The translations under genes and the position numbers were made by a program. Positions 1 through 24,402 of a DNA stretch of 64,000 nucleotides are shown piece by piece (the first letter of the stretch is position 1; every line of letters begins with the position of its first letter). The stretch comes from Paludisphaera mucosa (GTDB lineage Bacteria > Planctomycetota > Planctomycetia > Isosphaerales > Isosphaeraceae): positions 2,790,001 to 2,854,000 of the forward strand of contig NZ_JARRAG010000002.1 of assembly GCF_029589435.1 (NCBI RefSeq), given 5' to 3'. Under the pieces are notes generated by a model. The model was not told where the DNA came from and searched no databases. It was given only the letters and a program-made list of their open reading frames with translations.

Positions 1-2263
1 CGCCGATCTTGAGCCGGGCGTCGTAGAGGTTGAACACCTTGGCGAACTCGTACGCCACGGCCTCGTCGGACGAGACGCCGTCGTGATGGCCGCGTTCGAC
101 CATGAACGGCCGAGGCGCGATCAGCGCGGCCATCTCCGCATAGTTGAACGTGCTCCCCAGGTCGAACTCGAAGATCTCGTACTCTCCGGTCCGGACGTAG
201 CTGTGCGGGCTTCGCGTCGACGCGTTCTTCCAGACCCATTCGTTGAAGTCGGCCGAGCATATGGAAAGGCAGTAGTTCTCGACCAGCGGCGGGATCCGCA
301 TGGCCGACTTCCCGCCGTAGCTCAGCCCGTAGAAGGCGATCCGCGCGGGGTCGACCTGAGGCAGGGTCTTCAGCCAATCGGTGATCTGCTGATGCTGGGG
401 GACGATCATCGAGAAGAGCGTCTTGCCGAGCGGATTGGCCTTGCGCTGGAGGGTGCGGAAGCGGTCCTCGAAGATGTACAGATTCTGGGGTGCGAACGTG
501 ATGAAGCCTCGCTCCGCCAGCCGGACCGCGTATTTGTGATAGGCCGGGTTCTCGACCCGGGGGTCGGCGAGGTCCGTCGGCCGCCCTTCCAGGCCGTGCT
601 GGCAGACGACCACGGGGCGTTTCTCGCCCTCCTTCATCCCCTTCGGCATCAGCAGGATCCCCGAGGCGAAGAGGTCGGGGAAGACGTCCATGACGACCTC
701 GTAGCCCGTGAAGCCGGGCTCGTCGAAGATCTGCCGCGAGCGGACGTTCGGCGGGAGCCTTTCAAGGTCGAAGCGGCCGACGACCTCGGTCGCGAACCGC
801 TCGCGATAGGGCTCGACCGTCTTCGCGTAGGCCTCGATCGACGTCGTGTCGAGGTCCTTCATGAACTCCTTGCGGACGAACGGGCTCTCGACGAGCAACT
901 GCTGGGTGTGGCGGTCGATCTCGTGAAGCTGCCGGTCCTGACGCGCGACGAGCGCGGCGGCGGTCGGCCGCGGACCCTGCGGCGCCGGGCCGACCGGGGC
1001 GAGCTTTCGAGTGGGCTCCAGAGCGGCGAGGAACGCGGCGAGCGCGGGCTCGGACGCGAACGGTCCCTGGCCGTCTCCGCTGGCGAGGACCGAGAGGACG
1101 GGCCTCGGTTCGAGGCCGGCGATCAGCTTCCGGGCCCTTTCGACTTCCGCCTCGACCGTCGCCAACTTCGGCGTGGCGATCCGCCCCGGCGCGCCGCCCT
1201 TCCCCGGCCCGTAGACGAACTCGGGGGCCTTCGCCGCCTCGACGACGAGGGGCCGAGGGGCGATCATCGAGGCCAGTTCCGCGTCGCCGAACTGGTCGAG
1301 GAGGCCGAAGACGTTGCGATCGACGGGCTGCCGCCACACGTCGTCGCGATCGTCGAAATAGCCGCTCACGCAGGCGGCGTCGATCCTCGGGTCGAGCGCC
1401 GCGGCGTAGAGCGCGACGGCCCCCCCTTCGCCATAGCCGAAGACGCCGACCCGGGGTTCCGGCCCGGCTGCGGCGGAATCGACGATCGCCAGGACCTTCT
1501 GGACTTCCAGGCCGAGCAGCGTCCGTCCCAGCACGAACGCCGGACGTTGGAGGAATTCGCGGCTGGTCAGCTGAGCGCCGCCGCCCATGCGGGGGGCGAC
1601 CGCGCGATCGATCAGGACGGGCGCGATCACGGTGAAGCCGCTCTCGGCGAGGCGTCGGGCGACCTGACGCTCGGGCGGGAGGCCGGGCTCGATTCCCGCG
1701 AGTTGCTCGGGAGTCTGGTCGGCGTCGGGGACGACGACGATCACCCCGCTCGACGGCCCCTCCCCCCTGGCCTGGACGAGAAGCCCCTCCCCCGTGACGT
1801 CGCCGATCACGGGCCACCGGATCGCATGGATTTCAAGCGCATCGCCGACGAACGAGACGAGCCCCTCGCCCTGGATGCGGGCGGGCTCGGCGAAAGGGAC
1901 GCGAGGATCGCGGACGCCCAGGATGTGCGCCAGCCTCCTACGATTGGGCTCGATCGACCGTGGGTAGGCCTCGGCCGAAGAGAAGTCGCGCTTCCAGTGC
2001 GAGGCCCGGCCGGCCGCCGATTCGTCGATCTTCCGCAGCAGGAATCGGTCGGCCCCCGCGACGAGTTGGGAGGCGAGATCGCCGGGCATGTCGAGCGGCT
2101 TCGTCCCGGCGATCGGCGGCCCGATCGTCCTGTAATCCGGCCCCGGCTCGGAACCCCGGGCGAGCCCCGCGCCGAGAACCGCCGCGAGCATCGCCACGAC
2201 CGGACGAGTCGCATCCACCCGGACGACGCCGCATCGCTCCGCGAGCTTCCTGAAAGACCGCAT
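1..2263 (-). CDS. Tandem alpha/beta-hydrolase (acetylxylan esterase/dienelactone-hydrolase type), 3' end outside window
   Basis: About 754 residues are visible from an ATG at 2263; the C-terminus lies beyond the left edge. Residues ~10-35 form a signal peptide. Two hydrolase domains follow. The first (~90-400) has the elbow GYGEGG near residue 276, where the nucleophile Ser of GxSxG is replaced by Glu. The second (~480-754) has an intact elbow, GLSYGG, near residue 646, and an APRPFMVERGHHD stretch near 720 that should carry the acid residue. The catalytic His would fall past the window edge. I infer a secreted esterase whose activity resides in the C-terminal domain, the N-terminal one being a degenerate duplicate. 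The substrate is unknown, plausibly acylated polysaccharide. The gene is divergent from the amine oxidase. Confidence 0.8.
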   Translation of the reverse strand, partial: MRSFRKLAERCGVVRVDATRPVVAMLAAVLGAGLARGSEPGPDYRTIGPPIAGTKPLDMPGDLASQLVAGADRFLLRKIDESAAGRASHWKRDFSSAEAYPRSIEPNRRRLAHILGVRDPRVPFAEPARIQGEGLVSFVGDALEIHAIRWPVIGDVTGEGLLVQARGEGPSSGVIVVVPDADQTPEQLAGIEPGLPPERQVARRLAESGFTVIAPVLIDRAVAPRMGGGAQLTSREFLQRPAFVLGRTLLGLEVQKVLAIVDSAAAGPEPRVGVFGYGEGGAVALYAAALDPRIDAACVSGYFDDRDDVWRQPVDRNVFGLLDQFGDAELASMIAPRPLVVEAAKAPEFVYGPGKGGAPGRIATPKLATVEAEVERARKLIAGLEPRPVLSVLASGDGQGPFASEPALAAFLAALEPTRKLAPVGPAPQGPRPTAAALVARQDRQLHEIDRHTQQLLVESPFVRKEFMKDLDTTSIEAYAKTVEPYRERFATEVVGRFDLERLPPNVRSRQIFDEPGFTGYEVVMDVFPDLFASGILLMPKGMKEGEKRPVVVCQHGLEGRPTDLADPRVENPAYHKYAVRLAERGFITFAPQNLYIFEDRFRTLQRKANPLGKTLFSMIVPQHQQITDWLKTLPQVDPARIAFYGLSYGGKSAMRIPPLVENYCLSICSADFNEWVWKNASTRSPHSYVRTGEYEIFEFDLGSTFNYAEMAALIAPRPFMVERGHHDGVSSDEAVAYEFAKVFNLYDARLKIG

Positions 2264-21412: not shown

Positions 21413-21823
21413 ATGATGAAACTGCTGTACGTCGCGTCGTTGCTGCTGCTCGGAGCCGCGCTCGCCTACCCGGCGCTCGCGACCGCCCCCAAGGACGAAG
21501 CCGAGGGGCCGCCGCTCGCGCATATGGTCTTCTTCACGCTCAAGGACCACTCGAAGGACGCGGTCGAGGCCTTCGCCAAGGACTGCGAGACCTACCTGAC
21601 CAAGCACGAGGGGACCGTCTACTTCTCGCTGGGCAAGCGGGCCGAGGACGTGGAGGAGCCGCCCAGCGTGAAGGACTTCGACGTCGCCCTGCACGTCGTC
21701 TTCGCCGACAGGAAATACCGCGACAAGTACCTGAAGAGCACCCGGCACGACGAGTTCGTCGCCGCCATCAAGACCCGGGTCGAGAAGGCCCGGGTGTTCG
21801 ACTCGTACCTGGCCAAGCCCTGA
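21413..21823 (+). CDS. Secreted Dabb-domain (stress-responsive A/B barrel) protein
   Basis: 136 residues. Residues 1-24 are a signal peptide (LLYVASLLLLGAALAYPALA). The Dabb domain fills the rest: LAHMVFFTLKDHSKDAVEAFAKDCETYL, SLGKRAEDVEEPPSVKDFDVALHVVFADRKYRDKYLKSTRHDEFV. The family forms dimeric alpha+beta barrels, and exported versions are frequent in planctomycetes with unknown roles. A shared hairpin separates it from the convergent Rrf2 gene. Confidence 0.88.
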   Translation: MMKLLYVASLLLLGAALAYPALATAPKDEAEGPPLAHMVFFTLKDHSKDAVEAFAKDCETYLTKHEGTVYFSLGKRAEDVEEPPSVKDFDVALHVVFADRKYRDKYLKSTRHDEFVAAIKTRVEKARVFDSYLAKP

Positions 21824-21832
21824 AAACGGCCC

Positions 21833-21863
21833 GCGGGGAGGCCCGACTCGCTCGCCTCCCCGC
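21833..21863. terminator. Bidirectional hairpin between Dabb and Rrf2 genes
   Basis: GCGGGGAGGC (21833-21842) pairs perfectly with GCCTCCCCGC (21854-21863). It lies between two converging stop codons. Confidence 0.65.
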
Positions 21864-21871
21864 ATCGCCGC

Positions 21872-22282
21872 TCAGATGGTCCAGTCGGGCGTCTTGCCCT
21901 GGGCGGCGAGGTGGGCGACCGTCGTGCGGTCCAGGATGTCGACCTGGGAGGCCTGGATTCGCTCCCAGAGCCGTGCGAGGGCGTCGAGCGTGGAGCGCCG
22001 GGCGGGACGCTCCTGGAAGCCCTCGCCGTCGATCACGCGAAGGACGTCGCCCAGCGAGATCGTCGCCGGGTCGCGCGCCAGGCGGTAACCGCCCGAAGAG
22101 CCCCGCGTGCTGTTGACCAGCCCCGCCCCCTTGAGCCGGATCAGGATCTGCGTCAGGAAGGTCTCGGGGATTTCGTAGGCCTCGGCGATCTCCCGGATCG
22201 GCACCGGCCGGTCGCCCTGATGGCGGTCGGCCAGCGCGATCACCGCCAGGCACGCGTATTCCGCCTTGGCCGAGATCTTCAC
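21872..22282 (-). CDS. Rrf2-family regulator without Fe-S cysteines
   Basis: 136 residues from a GTG at 22282, seven bases after a strong AGGAGG; this is better placed than the GTG six bases upstream. The winged helix is clear: MKISAKAEYACLAVIALADRH, then IREIAEAYEIPETFLTQILIRLKGAGLVNSTRGSSGGYRLAR (~30-75). The central C-terminal region has no cysteine triad, so it should not bind an Fe-S cluster and resembles CymR-type members in that respect. The final DWTI matches the end of the second Rrf2 protein at 23.5 kb. It is probably co-transcribed with the 73-residue gene upstream. Confidence 0.9.
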   Translation of the reverse strand: MKISAKAEYACLAVIALADRHQGDRPVPIREIAEAYEIPETFLTQILIRLKGAGLVNSTRGSSGGYRLARDPATISLGDVLRVIDGEGFQERPARRSTLDALARLWERIQASQVDILDRTTVAHLAAQGKTPDWTI

Positions 22283-22334
22283 GAACACCCCTCCTAGCTT
22301 CGGGCCGCGTCCCCGTCGACGCCCGGCGAGCCCA

Positions 22335-22556
22335 TCAGTTCCAACAGGGCTCGAGCATCTTCTGGAACTTCGACGGCTGCGTCGCCGCCAGGGCCTGCTC
22401 GTACGCCAACCGATACACCGCCGCCCAGGGCCCCGCCACCATGAAGCCGCCGGCCGTCGGGACGAACGAACCCGTGACACGCGTCGCGTGCGTCGAGGTC
22501 GCGACCGAGGAGACCGACGCCGTCGAAGTGGGGACCGACCAGGTGATTCGCGACAT
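22335..22556 (-). CDS. 73-residue hypothetical protein upstream of Rrf2
   Basis: The N-terminal half is Ser/Thr/Val-rich. The C-terminal half, GPWAAVYRLAYEQALAATQPSKFQKMLEPCWN, looks like an amphipathic helix with conserved-looking aromatics. No known domain. It is transcribed toward the Rrf2 gene with a 52-base gap, from a near-consensus promoter at 22604-22631. GC3 is high throughout, which supports coding. Function unknown; a partner or target of the adjacent regulator is possible. Confidence 0.6.
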   Translation of the reverse strand: MSRITWSVPTSTASVSSVATSTHATRVTGSFVPTAGGFMVAGPWAAVYRLAYEQALAATQPSKFQKMLEPCWN

Positions 22557-22603
22557 GACTGCGTGCGCCTCGGGAAGGAGTGCCTGACAACCTCACTACC
22601 TCA

Positions 22604-22641
22604 ACATTACCATTCCTATCGTCATGGTCAAGTTGAATCTT
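22604..22641 (-). promoter_or_regulatory. Promoter for 73-residue gene/Rrf2, with AAG-N6-CTT site
   Basis: On the minus strand, TTGACC (22626-22631) and TAATGT (22604-22609) are 16 bases apart. An AAG-N6-CTT sequence at 22630-22641 touches the -35 box and has the same spacing as the core of the palindrome before the Met/Cys gene. The region is clearly AT-richer than its surroundings. Confidence 0.5.
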
Positions 22642-22797
22642 CAGTATCCCTACCCGATTTCTAGGGGGGGCCTTCGGGCGCGCTATTAGGGCCCAACGGA
22701 CGTCGCGGGCGCGACTCGGCGAGATGCGACGCCGAGGTCGAGACGCCCTCGCGGAATGCGGTCCTTGTCGATCAGGCTTATCTGGAAGGTCATGATC

Positions 22798-22851
22798 CAT
22801 AAGAATTATCTTATGAATTGTCTTGAAACCCGCATCCGGCGCGACTAGAAC
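22798..22851 (+). promoter_or_regulatory. Promoter and palindromic site for the Met/Cys-rich gene
   Basis: A perfect inverted repeat, CATAAGA-ATTA-TCTTATG (22798-22815), lies seven bases upstream of a -35 TTGAAA (22823-22828). A -10 TAGAAC (22846-22851) follows at the ideal 17-base spacing. The palindrome above the -35 suggests an activator, or a regulator contacting polymerase. The 5' leader would be about 70 bases. Confidence 0.6.
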
Positions 22852-22928
22852 TAGGACCGTGCGGGGCGGAGTTCGACCCCGAGCCGGAAACGTGCGAGGC
22901 CGGCGACCTTATCCTGGGGAGCTTCGAG

Positions 22929-23396
22929 ATGACGACGATGATGATGGAACGGTCCGGCATGGCGATGAACATGGGCATGAACATGGGCATGGGCGGGATG
23001 ACGACCGGCGCGACCATGCCGACGACCCCGCAGTGGATGATGGTCCCCCGCTGCACCATCACGATGGAGAAGTGCGCCGGCGGGATGAAGATGGTCTGCA
23101 AGTGCGACGACAAGATGTCGGCGAGCATGATGCAGAACCTCTGCACCATGATGGCCGGCGGCATGTGCAGCGGCTGCATGATGATGAACGGCATGATGAT
23201 GTGCTGCTGCAACATGACCATGGGCATGTGCAAGTGCGAGATGACCGACGACGGCGTGACGATGACCTGCACCAGCGGCGACGCCGAGTGCTGCAAGATG
23301 ATCCAGGCCTGCTGCGACTGCATGACGACCATGATGAAGTCCGGCTGCGTCTGCTGCGTCTGCATGAACGGCATGCCCGTCTGCTGCTCCTGCTGA
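22929..23396 (+). CDS. Met/Cys-rich protein, candidate soft-metal-binding protein
   Basis: 155 residues, of which 40 are Met and 25 are Cys (42% together); there is no His, Phe or Tyr and one Trp. Residues 1-40 are a Met-only segment with MxM/MxxM spacing and no Cys. Residues 42-155 hold all 25 Cys as CC, CxC, CxxC and one CCC (92-94), mixed with Met clusters. No signal peptide is visible, so it should be cytoplasmic, where thiols stay reduced. Composition suits Cu(I) or other thiophilic metals, as in metallothioneins, but it matches no metallothionein pattern I know. The reading is supported by near-total GC3, a GGGGA ribosome site, a strong promoter and a terminator. Rrf2 regulators lie on both sides. 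Function is inferred. Confidence 0.82.
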   Translation: MTTMMMERSGMAMNMGMNMGMGGMTTGATMPTTPQWMMVPRCTITMEKCAGGMKMVCKCDDKMSASMMQNLCTMMAGGMCSGCMMMNGMMMCCCNMTMGMCKCEMTDDGVTMTCTSGDAECCKMIQACCDCMTTMMKSGCVCCVCMNGMPVCCSC

Positions 23397-23427
23397 GCGA
23401 GCCCGGACGGTCGCCTTCGAAATGCGA

Positions 23428-23473
23428 CGAAGCCGCCGCGACGCCCCGGACGGGACGCGTCGCGGCGGCTTCG
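23428..23473. terminator. 17-bp bidirectional hairpin terminator
   Basis: CGAAGCCGCCGCGACGC (23428-23444) pairs perfectly with its complement at 23457-23473 around a 12-base loop. It lies between the converging Met/Cys gene and the second Rrf2 gene and is the longest perfect hairpin I noticed in the window. Confidence 0.75.
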
Positions 23474-23512
23474 CGCTTCGAAACAGGAAGGCCCGCCCGC
23501 AGGCCGGCCGCC

Positions 23513-23962
23513 TCAGATCGTCCAGTCGGCGACGTAGAGGAAGCCGAGGTCCTGGTTTTCCTTGACCAGGTCGGCGAAGGTCGTCTCGTCGACGACGTCG
23601 GCGATGGCCTGGCGGACGCGGCCCCAGAAGCCGACGAACGGGCACTGGCCGGGATACTCGCAGGTCTTGGGGCGGGACTGGCTGACGCAGTCGACCGGTG
23701 CAACGGGGCCGTCGATGAAGCGGATCACCGACCCGATGGTGACGTCCTCGGGCTGCTTGGCGAGCAGGTAGCCCCCCTCGGCCCCGCGCCGGCTGTTCAC
23801 GAAGCCGCCGCCCTTGAGCTGGCTGAGGATCGCCTCCAGGAATTTGATGGGAATGTGCTGCCGCTCGGCGATCTCGTTGGCCTTCATCGGCGCGGACCCG
23901 CGATATTCGGCCAGGGCGTAGATGGCCCGCAACGCGTAATAACACTTGGCCGATACGGTCAT
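23513..23962 (-). CDS. Rrf2-family regulator with probable Fe-S cluster
   Basis: 149 residues. The winged helix is in the first 70 residues (MTVSAKCYYALRAIYALAEY, then KANEIAERQHIPIKFLEAILSQLKGGGFVNSRRGAEGGYLL). The loop after the dimerisation helix has Cys92, Cys101 and Cys107 (C-x8-C-x5-C), matching the position of the cluster ligands in IscR, NsrR and RirA. I infer a [2Fe-2S] or [4Fe-4S] sensor of iron, NO, redox or metal damage. It ends in DWTI like its neighbour Rrf2. It converges on the Met/Cys gene, which it may control. Confidence 0.9.
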   Translation of the reverse strand: MTVSAKCYYALRAIYALAEYRGSAPMKANEIAERQHIPIKFLEAILSQLKGGGFVNSRRGAEGGYLLAKQPEDVTIGSVIRFIDGPVAPVDCVSQSRPKTCEYPGQCPFVGFWGRVRQAIADVVDETTFADLVKENQDLGFLYVADWTI

Positions 23963-24402
23963 TCGAACGCTCTTTGATGATTCGATGTCGCTCGCGCCGG
24001 CCCATCTCCGGCCGCGCCACCCATTCCTCGAAACCCGCTACCTTTCATTCTACTCCGCAGGTGCCGACGAGAAACCCCCGATGTCCGTCGAGATTCTCGG
24101 GTTAGTAGGAAATCCAAGGAAACCCGCGGCCGCAGATGTGTTGCGGAATCCGGGACGGACCCTGGTTCCTGGGGCCGACCCTTCGTCGCCCCGACGGCCG
24201 TGCGTCGAGTTGGAGATCGGGCGTCGTTCGGGGCCAAATTCCCGTTTCGTCGCTCTCACGCCATCAAGCGCAGGTGGTTCCAGGCGAGAATCTCCTGGTC
24301 GCAGCCCCGGAACCCTCGCACGGTACGTCTCAAGATCCGCGTTTCACGATCCACCGGAGCCCGATCGCGTCGCGTGGATTCAAGGTCCCTCGGATCCCCA
24401 AG
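23963..24402. other. 440-base divergent intergenic region
   Basis: This separates the Fe-S Rrf2 gene (minus) from the deacetylase gene (plus). A TAGAAT box on the minus strand near 24048-24053 may be the Rrf2 -10, with a poor -35. Reading frames here lack homology-like content. I see no gene. Confidence 0.4.

Follow-up and report, generated by a model that had tools for sequence, protein, structure and literature searches.

MCR, a Met/Cys-rich protein of Paludisphaera mucosa, belongs to a real, conserved family. Newly described here are a usually divergent partner gene, Rrf2 neighbors, neighbors encoding cysteine enzymes and a palindrome found at a single site. We analyzed a stretch of 64,000 nucleotides that carries the gene (denoted the window), on which a preliminary description was available; the partner gene, the internal duplication, the operator candidate and the two flanking Rrf2 genes go beyond that description. 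Nothing in the searched libraries matches the MCR family, the partner or the pairing of the two, and literature searches returned nothing naming the family. Because MCR is a real, conserved family with a partner gene and cysteine-type regulators, it may be a hitherto undescribed means by which the cell stores or buffers sulfur or soft metals. The reading that we favor, at somewhat less than an even chance, is a thiol-thioether depot or buffer of reduced sulfur controlled by sulfur or cysteine. Bacteria store phosphate, carbon, iron and copper; if the depot reading is true, MCR would be a gene-encoded protein that stores or buffers reduced sulfur, a kind of which we found no known example, and it would show how planctomycetes handle uneven sulfur supply or cysteine toxicity. 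The partner gene, the operator candidate and the regulators make MCR function directly testable either way. The features of the locus are as follows.

21413-21823: Dabb protein (PF07876, stress-responsive A/B barrel) with a signal-peptide-like start, by eye
21872..22288, minus strand: Rrf2-family regulator with a single Cys and no Fe-S triad, 46 bases downstream of the partner on the same strand (PF02082, E 1.1e-31)
22335..22556, minus strand: partner gene, 73 amino acids, C-terminal YRLAYEQA..PS.FQ....WN, divergent from MCR and recurring beside it
22798..22815, no strand assigned: operator candidate CATAAGAATTATCTTATG, a 7-4-7 palindrome just upstream of the -35 box
22823..22851, plus strand: promoter candidate TTGAAA-17-TAGAAC, by eye
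22929..23396, plus strand: MCR, 155 amino acids, 16.6 kDa, from counts and family alignments
22929..23036, plus strand: N-terminal arm of MCR, residues 1-36, rich in Met, Gly, Pro and Thr and variable in length, from the alignment
23061..23210, plus strand: repeat 1, residues 45-94, predicted hairpin-helix-hairpin (hhalign, AlphaFold2)
23232..23390, plus strand: repeat 2, residues 102-154, predicted hairpin-helix-hairpin (hhalign, AlphaFold2)
23397..23500, plus strand: strong hairpin between convergent genes (-64.1 kcal/mol, z -3.9)
23513..23962, minus strand: second Rrf2-family regulator, convergent with MCR and bearing a C-x8-C-x5-C triad (PF02082, E 1.2e-34)

Direct counting gave 40 Met and 25 Cys (41.9% of the residues) and no His, Phe or Tyr, the same figures as in the preliminary description, and the 65 sulfur atoms make up a computed 12.5% of the protein mass. 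The protein thus has the exceptional Met plus Cys content that is one mark of a zein-like sulfur storage protein. Among 242 six-frame ORFs of the window, read from the first Met to the stop and at least 100 amino acids long, the runner-up reached 12.5% and the remainder averaged 2.4% (sd 2.0%). The GC3 of MCR (99.1%) is the highest among 10 window genes, which hints at high expression. No signal peptide was seen by eye, and the protein would be cytosolic. Two minus-strand ORFs, 22811-23374 and 22851-24020, were discounted as antisense shadows of the Met and Cys codons of MCR, and no Rfam family reached its gathering score over 21800-24100.

Homologues of MCR (E<=0.01) were detected in 23 of 99 related genomes, its own included; the full-length ones are 46-87% identical and free of stops, and some carrier genomes hold second copies or fragments. 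The window genome was placed in the same genus as relative G003, and 15 pairs among the six MCR genes of the genus gave dN/dS values of 0.12-0.67, below 1. Thus the gene is a coding ORF and, as had been claimed, not junk. Scanning genome contigs with patterns drawn from the window protein only yielded 10 MCR loci; of these, L035, L037 and L038 come from MAGs whose titles read Verrucomicrobi(ot)a or Spartobacteria. A wider sample gave two distant planctomycete members (G134 and G176). The family is patchy, being present in 3 of 294 genomes of a phylum sample, its own one included, and in 1 of 288 of a phylum sample around G372, namely the seed genome itself. In a midpoint-rooted tree of the core, calculated from a short alignment, the three Verrucomicrobia sequences fall among the window's own family, and this nesting suggests transfer of MCR between Planctomycetota and Verrucomicrobia lineages. 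At E<=1e-5 there was no match in plasmids (two queries) or phages (one query), and a fragment of the partner gene had no phage match. Alignment A1 kept 25 of 35 extracted ORFs, the other ten being same-contig duplicates or fragments. The 31 loci and 29 sequences counted below exclude contig-end fragments from G011 (L028 and L029) and a weak, stop-bearing match in G070 (L027, E 0.004).

The 29 aligned sequences contain 5-72 Met and 18-34 Cys each, and Met:Cys spans 5:34 to 72:18 on one scaffold. Met plus Cys accounts for 25% of the residues in G092 and 31% in G097, the remaining 27 sequences lying at 35-46%. Within the core this sum varies little around 43% (sd 3.7%, range 30-47%), the Met fraction falling as the Cys fraction rises (r -0.82; -0.65 over 28 independent contrasts), which favors the depot reading. 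The abstract of PMC3420316 presents a likeness in the maize beta-, gamma- and delta-zeins, in which protein-bound Met and Cys form a sulfur sink and are traded for each other, there between proteins and in MCR between homologues; zeins, however, are plant seed proteins, unrelated to MCR in sequence as far as Pfam shows. Against the depot reading, Met trades more strongly with Leu, Ile, Val and Phe (contrasts r -0.81) than with Cys, and Met-Cys exchanges are not in excess: parsimony placed 33 among 562 changes, compared with 37 expected from LG exchangeabilities combined with family frequencies and scaled on eight other Met exchanges. We therefore rejected these exchanges as proof of sulfur selection. 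The low sum in G092 also weighs against a depot. The Met trade, the lack of excess exchanges and the nearly Met-free G092 homologue (5 Met and 34 Cys in 156 residues) would all suit an ordinary fold with a quirk of composition, in which Met and Cys occupy hydrophobic and small sites of a structural protein, for example a scaffold or a subunit working alongside the partner, and their sulfur plays no direct part. We consider this highly improbable; even G092 retains its 34 Cys, and the other 28 sequences hold 31-46% Met plus Cys against the window mean of 2.4%. The distant homologues L041 and L042, with chosen starts, contain 72 Met in 209 and 64 Met in 183 residues, or 34-35% Met.

From residue 35 on, G52, D61, N87, G88, G109, C114, G117, D118, G139, C142, P150 and C153 are invariant in 29/29 sequences, and 16 Cys and 10 Met positions are retained in at least 26 of the 29. 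The preliminary description had staked its reading on homologues with conserved Cys and Met positions, and these exist. Its division of the protein into a Met-only arm and a Cys-rich part was correct, the Cys-rich part consisting of two repeats. Residues 42-96 are homologous to residues 98-155 (hhalign probability 97.7 with a score of 58.1, where 100 column shuffles reached at most 19.9), and the core is, on this profile comparison, an internal duplication. The equivalent Cys pairs (repeat 1/repeat 2) are 57/114, 72/129, 80/140, 82/142, 83/143, 92/152 and 93/153; at position 82 the window protein has Gly and 21 of 29 sequences have Cys. AlphaFold2 modeled the whole protein with a pLDDT of 66 and a low-confidence arm, and the core alone with 8 strands and 2 helices (pLDDT 79.9, pTM 0.69). 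The predicted core fold comprises two hairpin-helix-hairpin (bb-a-bb) units, and the family is probably folded. The arm (residues 1-36, pLDDT <50) is probably disordered and, in the alignment, starts with MMM(E/D)R in most close homologues. By eye, most members, distant ones too, carry a short MMM(E/D)R or SER motif within residues 1-12, after which comes a variable Met-rich linker; the motif looks like a docking or targeting peptide.

The AlphaFold2 core model is not a Csp-type four-helix bundle with core-facing Cys. Foldseek found no PDB match at E<=0.001 for the whole or the core model, and VIA found none at Z>=5 (best Z 3.9 for either model); these absences neither make the fold new nor speak against a structural match to Csp. 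Among viral structures nothing reached E<=0.001, the closest, at 0.084, being an uncharacterised phage protein, and the best hit of a PDB sequence-profile search had an E of 1.3, taken as chance. Pfam gave no family for 17 of 17 members at E<=0.01, the window protein matching PF09981 alone at E 0.15, under its cut-off, and NCBIfam gave none for the window protein. No curated family model of prokaryotic metallothioneins matched MCR in sequence (Pfam, 17/17 members; NCBIfam, the window protein). MCR had been called unlike metallothioneins and Met-rich copper proteins, which agrees with the lack of any metallothionein or Csp match in the libraries searched.

CxC and CC motifs are typical of bacterial metallothioneins and are present in MCR; we know of no metallothionein with Met clusters. 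Together with CxxC and MxM motifs, and with the retained Cys positions, seven of which coincide between the repeats, they argue for a soft-metal thiolate store. Each repeat would then form a cluster of about seven Cys, aided by Met, for several Cu(I) (or Ag, Zn, Cd or Hg) ions, the Met arm would capture Cu(I), and control by Rrf2 would be a response to thiol or Fe-S stress arising from the metal. Fixed Cys in two matching repeats suit such a store about as naturally as a depot, and 16 fixed Cys go beyond what a pure amino-acid store would seem to need. In the portion of PMC2869319 drawn on here, loss of CymR in S. aureus raises copper sensitivity and copA expression. Csp1 and Csp3, in the sections of PMC7558416 on these proteins, are Cys-dense stores as well, folded before loading and with weaker Met/His coordination at the mouth; they are homotetramers of four-helix bundles, whereas MCR is predicted to form two bb-a-bb repeats, has far more Met and shows no sequence match to Csp in Pfam or the PDB sequence profile. 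The bacterial metallothioneins SmtA and MymT described in the same sections are small and Cys-rich too, MymT having 4.9 kDa against the 16.6 kDa of MCR. A metal store of the MCR type would combine a different predicted fold with mixed Cys/Met chemistry.

Weighing against the metal store, no metal transporter, chaperone or regulator was recognized within about 4 kb at the 31 loci (by eye among listed genes, and with the chosen queries); the predicted fold is not the Csp-like four-helix one, and both the Met arm and the Met content vary widely, down to the 5 Met of G092. The fixed Cys positions keep this reading alive despite the lack of a recognized metal gene nearby, and we regard it as possible though doubtful. 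Two efflux-pump-like proteins were seen by eye 4.6-4.7 kb from MCR, in L059 and L056. The preliminary description had proposed a Cu, Ag or Hg store or a sulfur/redox sink; this was partly borne out, in that the gene is real and conserved and a sulfur sink was among the options, and the metal option is not supported so far, the recurrent neighbors being Rrf2 and cysteine enzymes.

The partner family shares a C-terminal YxxA(Y)EQA-like motif, often with a CP motif ahead of it, and the window partner protein has no match in Pfam or NCBIfam. A 16-row partner profile matched at 25 of the 31 MCR loci (E<0.001), upstream and divergent in 22 of these 25; nine of the matches lay outside the profile rows (E 5e-20 to 9e-4), and none was found at this threshold in L048, L050, L063, L066, L068 and L069. 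In the 99 genomes, a 19-row profile matched 20 of 23 MCR carriers and 0 of 76 non-carriers (Fisher 4e-18, not corrected for kinship), and all 21 matches lay within about 1.6 kb of an MCR gene. Most matched carriers had supplied rows to this profile; G001, G002, G031, G037 and G091 had not. The carriers lacking a match were G015 (contig end), G056 (weak match 2.2 kb downstream) and G092. As the rows came from MCR loci and at most 64 candidates were scored per genome, the search could overlook a diverged partner gene in non-carrier genomes.

Both regulators that flank MCR in the window pass the Rrf2 domain cut-off (PF02082, 110 and 120 bits against 30). CymR is the best-scoring named equivalog listed for both in NCBIfam, with 91 bits for 21872..22288 and 101 bits for 23513..23962, below the cut-off of 195, and the nearest PDB entries are for both 4cic and then CymR 2y75. 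The two genes are half of the four Rrf2 genes in the window's genome, and an Rrf2 pair flanks MCR within 3.1 kb at 6 of 6 same-genus loci. Rrf2 lies within 3 kb of MCR in 16 of 25 carrier genomes, where about 0.1 is expected over 28 loci (119 Rrf2 genes in about 199 Mb). This excess favors the depot reading, as do the rank of CymR for both regulators and the GC3 of MCR. Nine carriers have no Rrf2 within 3 kb (G014 and G031, in both of which it is 9-10 kb away, G015, G055, G061, G092, G097, G134 and G176), and at the Verrucomicrobia loci Rrf2 is near MCR in L038 and was not found in L035 and L037; these absences and the unreached CymR cut-off count against a depot, as does the fact that the Rrf2 family also comprises Fe-S, iron, NO and redox sensors. 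The CymR regulon of Firmicutes offers a likeness in the excerpts of PMC2869319 and PMC9338935, Rrf2 being tied there to cysteine metabolism and CysK; it differs in that these excerpts describe no MCR-like target, and in the sub-threshold scores of the window proteins.

In the genus, an AT-rich palindrome is located about 115-131 bases ahead of the MCR start. It is of CATCAAA type in four relatives, near-perfect in a fifth and CATAAGAATTATCTTATG in the window, and both arms change letters together. With as many as 3 mismatches allowed in the window's genome and as many as 2 in its five relatives, this was the one site found in each of the 6 Paludisphaera-genus genomes. A regulon connected through the operator was rejected, no second site being found; a looser operator would escape this search. 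The genus form of the palindrome was not found at other MCR loci, a point against the depot reading. The operator candidate sits just before a TTGnA...AnAAT-like promoter, and by eye similar boxes occupy about the same place in several upstream regions of the family. The gene had been credited with its own promoter and terminator. For the promoter, the boxes in the window and in relatives speak in favor, and a consensus scan did not report it; for the terminator, the hairpin after the gene is very strong, but no T-run follows it on the plus strand and the one terminator of the scan lies on the other strand.

In the depot reading, MCR would be a cytosolic, folded, sulfur-dense protein that buffers or stores reduced sulfur as Cys thiols and Met thioethers. 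An adjacent CymR-like Rrf2 regulator would read cysteine status and bind the dedicated palindrome before the MCR promoter. With sulfur plentiful, MCR would be made and take up cysteine and methionine, thereby limiting toxic free cysteine; with sulfur short, it would be degraded or its thiols drawn on. The product of the divergent partner gene may aid MCR, for example as an adaptor, chaperone or turnover factor. More tentatively still, the two genes could form a sulfur amino-acid reserve, a depot with a divergent adaptor and its own Rrf2 operator, whose core sulfur selection would hold near 43% with Met and Cys interchanging and which was passed between Planctomycetota and Verrucomicrobiota.

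MCR neighbors were re-sought by tblastn with 18 chosen queries at the 31 loci, because a home-made gene caller had mis-called some antisense frames; contig ends cut the neighborhood at L065, L066, L067 and L069, and the per-locus counts are not independent. Cysteine synthase, cystathionine beta-synthase (CBS), gamma-lyase (CGL) or cysteine dioxygenase lies within about 4.3 kb of MCR at 9 of 31 loci (L037, L048, L049, L050, L051, L059, L060, L061 and L065), representative neighbors being verified by Pfam. L049 and L051 carry partner, Rrf2, CBS and CGL in one row, in L060 and L061 Rrf2 and cysK come after MCR, and L037 has a partner-DUF2292-cysK arrangement. The three PALP neighbors tested exceeded curated NCBIfam cut-offs, as cysteine synthase A (L061 and L037) and cystathionine beta-synthase (L059). 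PALP genes (E<=1e-50) occur within 3 kb of MCR in 6 of 22 carriers, with 0.12 expected over 25 loci (P 3.7e-9, or 7.8e-6 for 4 arrangements counted as independent). The expectation is based on 123 strong PALP genes in 22 of 28 carriers; those left out (G001, G002, G004, G005, G015 and G031) have no PALP neighbor by tblastn. Cysteine dioxygenase is encoded in 9 of 28 carriers, beside MCR in 3 and elsewhere in 6, and in G011, G033 and G037 the only one found adjoins an MCR copy. The PALP excess, the rows of L049 and L051 and these sole dioxygenases favor the depot reading; the 22 of 31 loci with no cysteine enzyme by tblastn and the six genomes with the dioxygenase elsewhere oppose it. No cysteine enzyme lies beside MCR in the window or in five same-genus relatives, and the sulfur link is therefore a family-level argument. 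The dioxygenase gene of the window genome is on another contig. In L048, L050 and L065 cysteine dioxygenase is beside, or in the home-made gene call fused to, an FAD-NAD(P)-binding protein (PF13454 in L065).

In L057 (G016), MsrA (PF01625) is located at -2024..-1242 relative to MCR, 1.2 kb away, which favors the depot reading and also suits a redox or reactive-sulfur sink. In such a sink, Cys and Met would absorb peroxide, NO, persulfide or disulfide stress sensed by Rrf2, and thioredoxin together with methionine sulfoxide reductase would return MCR to its reduced state. According to PMC9338935, sensors of NO, redox state and thiol oxidation belong to the Rrf2 family; the downstream Rrf2 has an Fe-S-like Cys triad, and the stress-type Dabb protein lies within 3.4 kb of MCR at 6 of 6 loci of the genus; all three are consistent with a sink of this kind. 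We nevertheless judge it unlikely: MsrA was found at 1 of 31 loci (one query), thioredoxin and catalase were not recognized nearby (by eye among the genes listed), and neighbors of cysteine biosynthesis suit it less well.

Other neighbors of MCR were also observed. L057 carries a PHO4-family transporter (PF01384) at 770..2251 relative to MCR. A DUF2292-type small protein is encoded 0.5-6 kb from MCR in L037, L052, L053, L055 and L056, as tested by Pfam in L037 and L052 and by tblastn in the others. A transposase-like gene lies 0.6-2.7 kb upstream of MCR, on the same strand, at the family-f3 loci L058, L060, L061 and L062; the L062 copy, the sole one tested by Pfam, contains DDE_5. This gene is possibly how the MCR module moved, or an old insertion.
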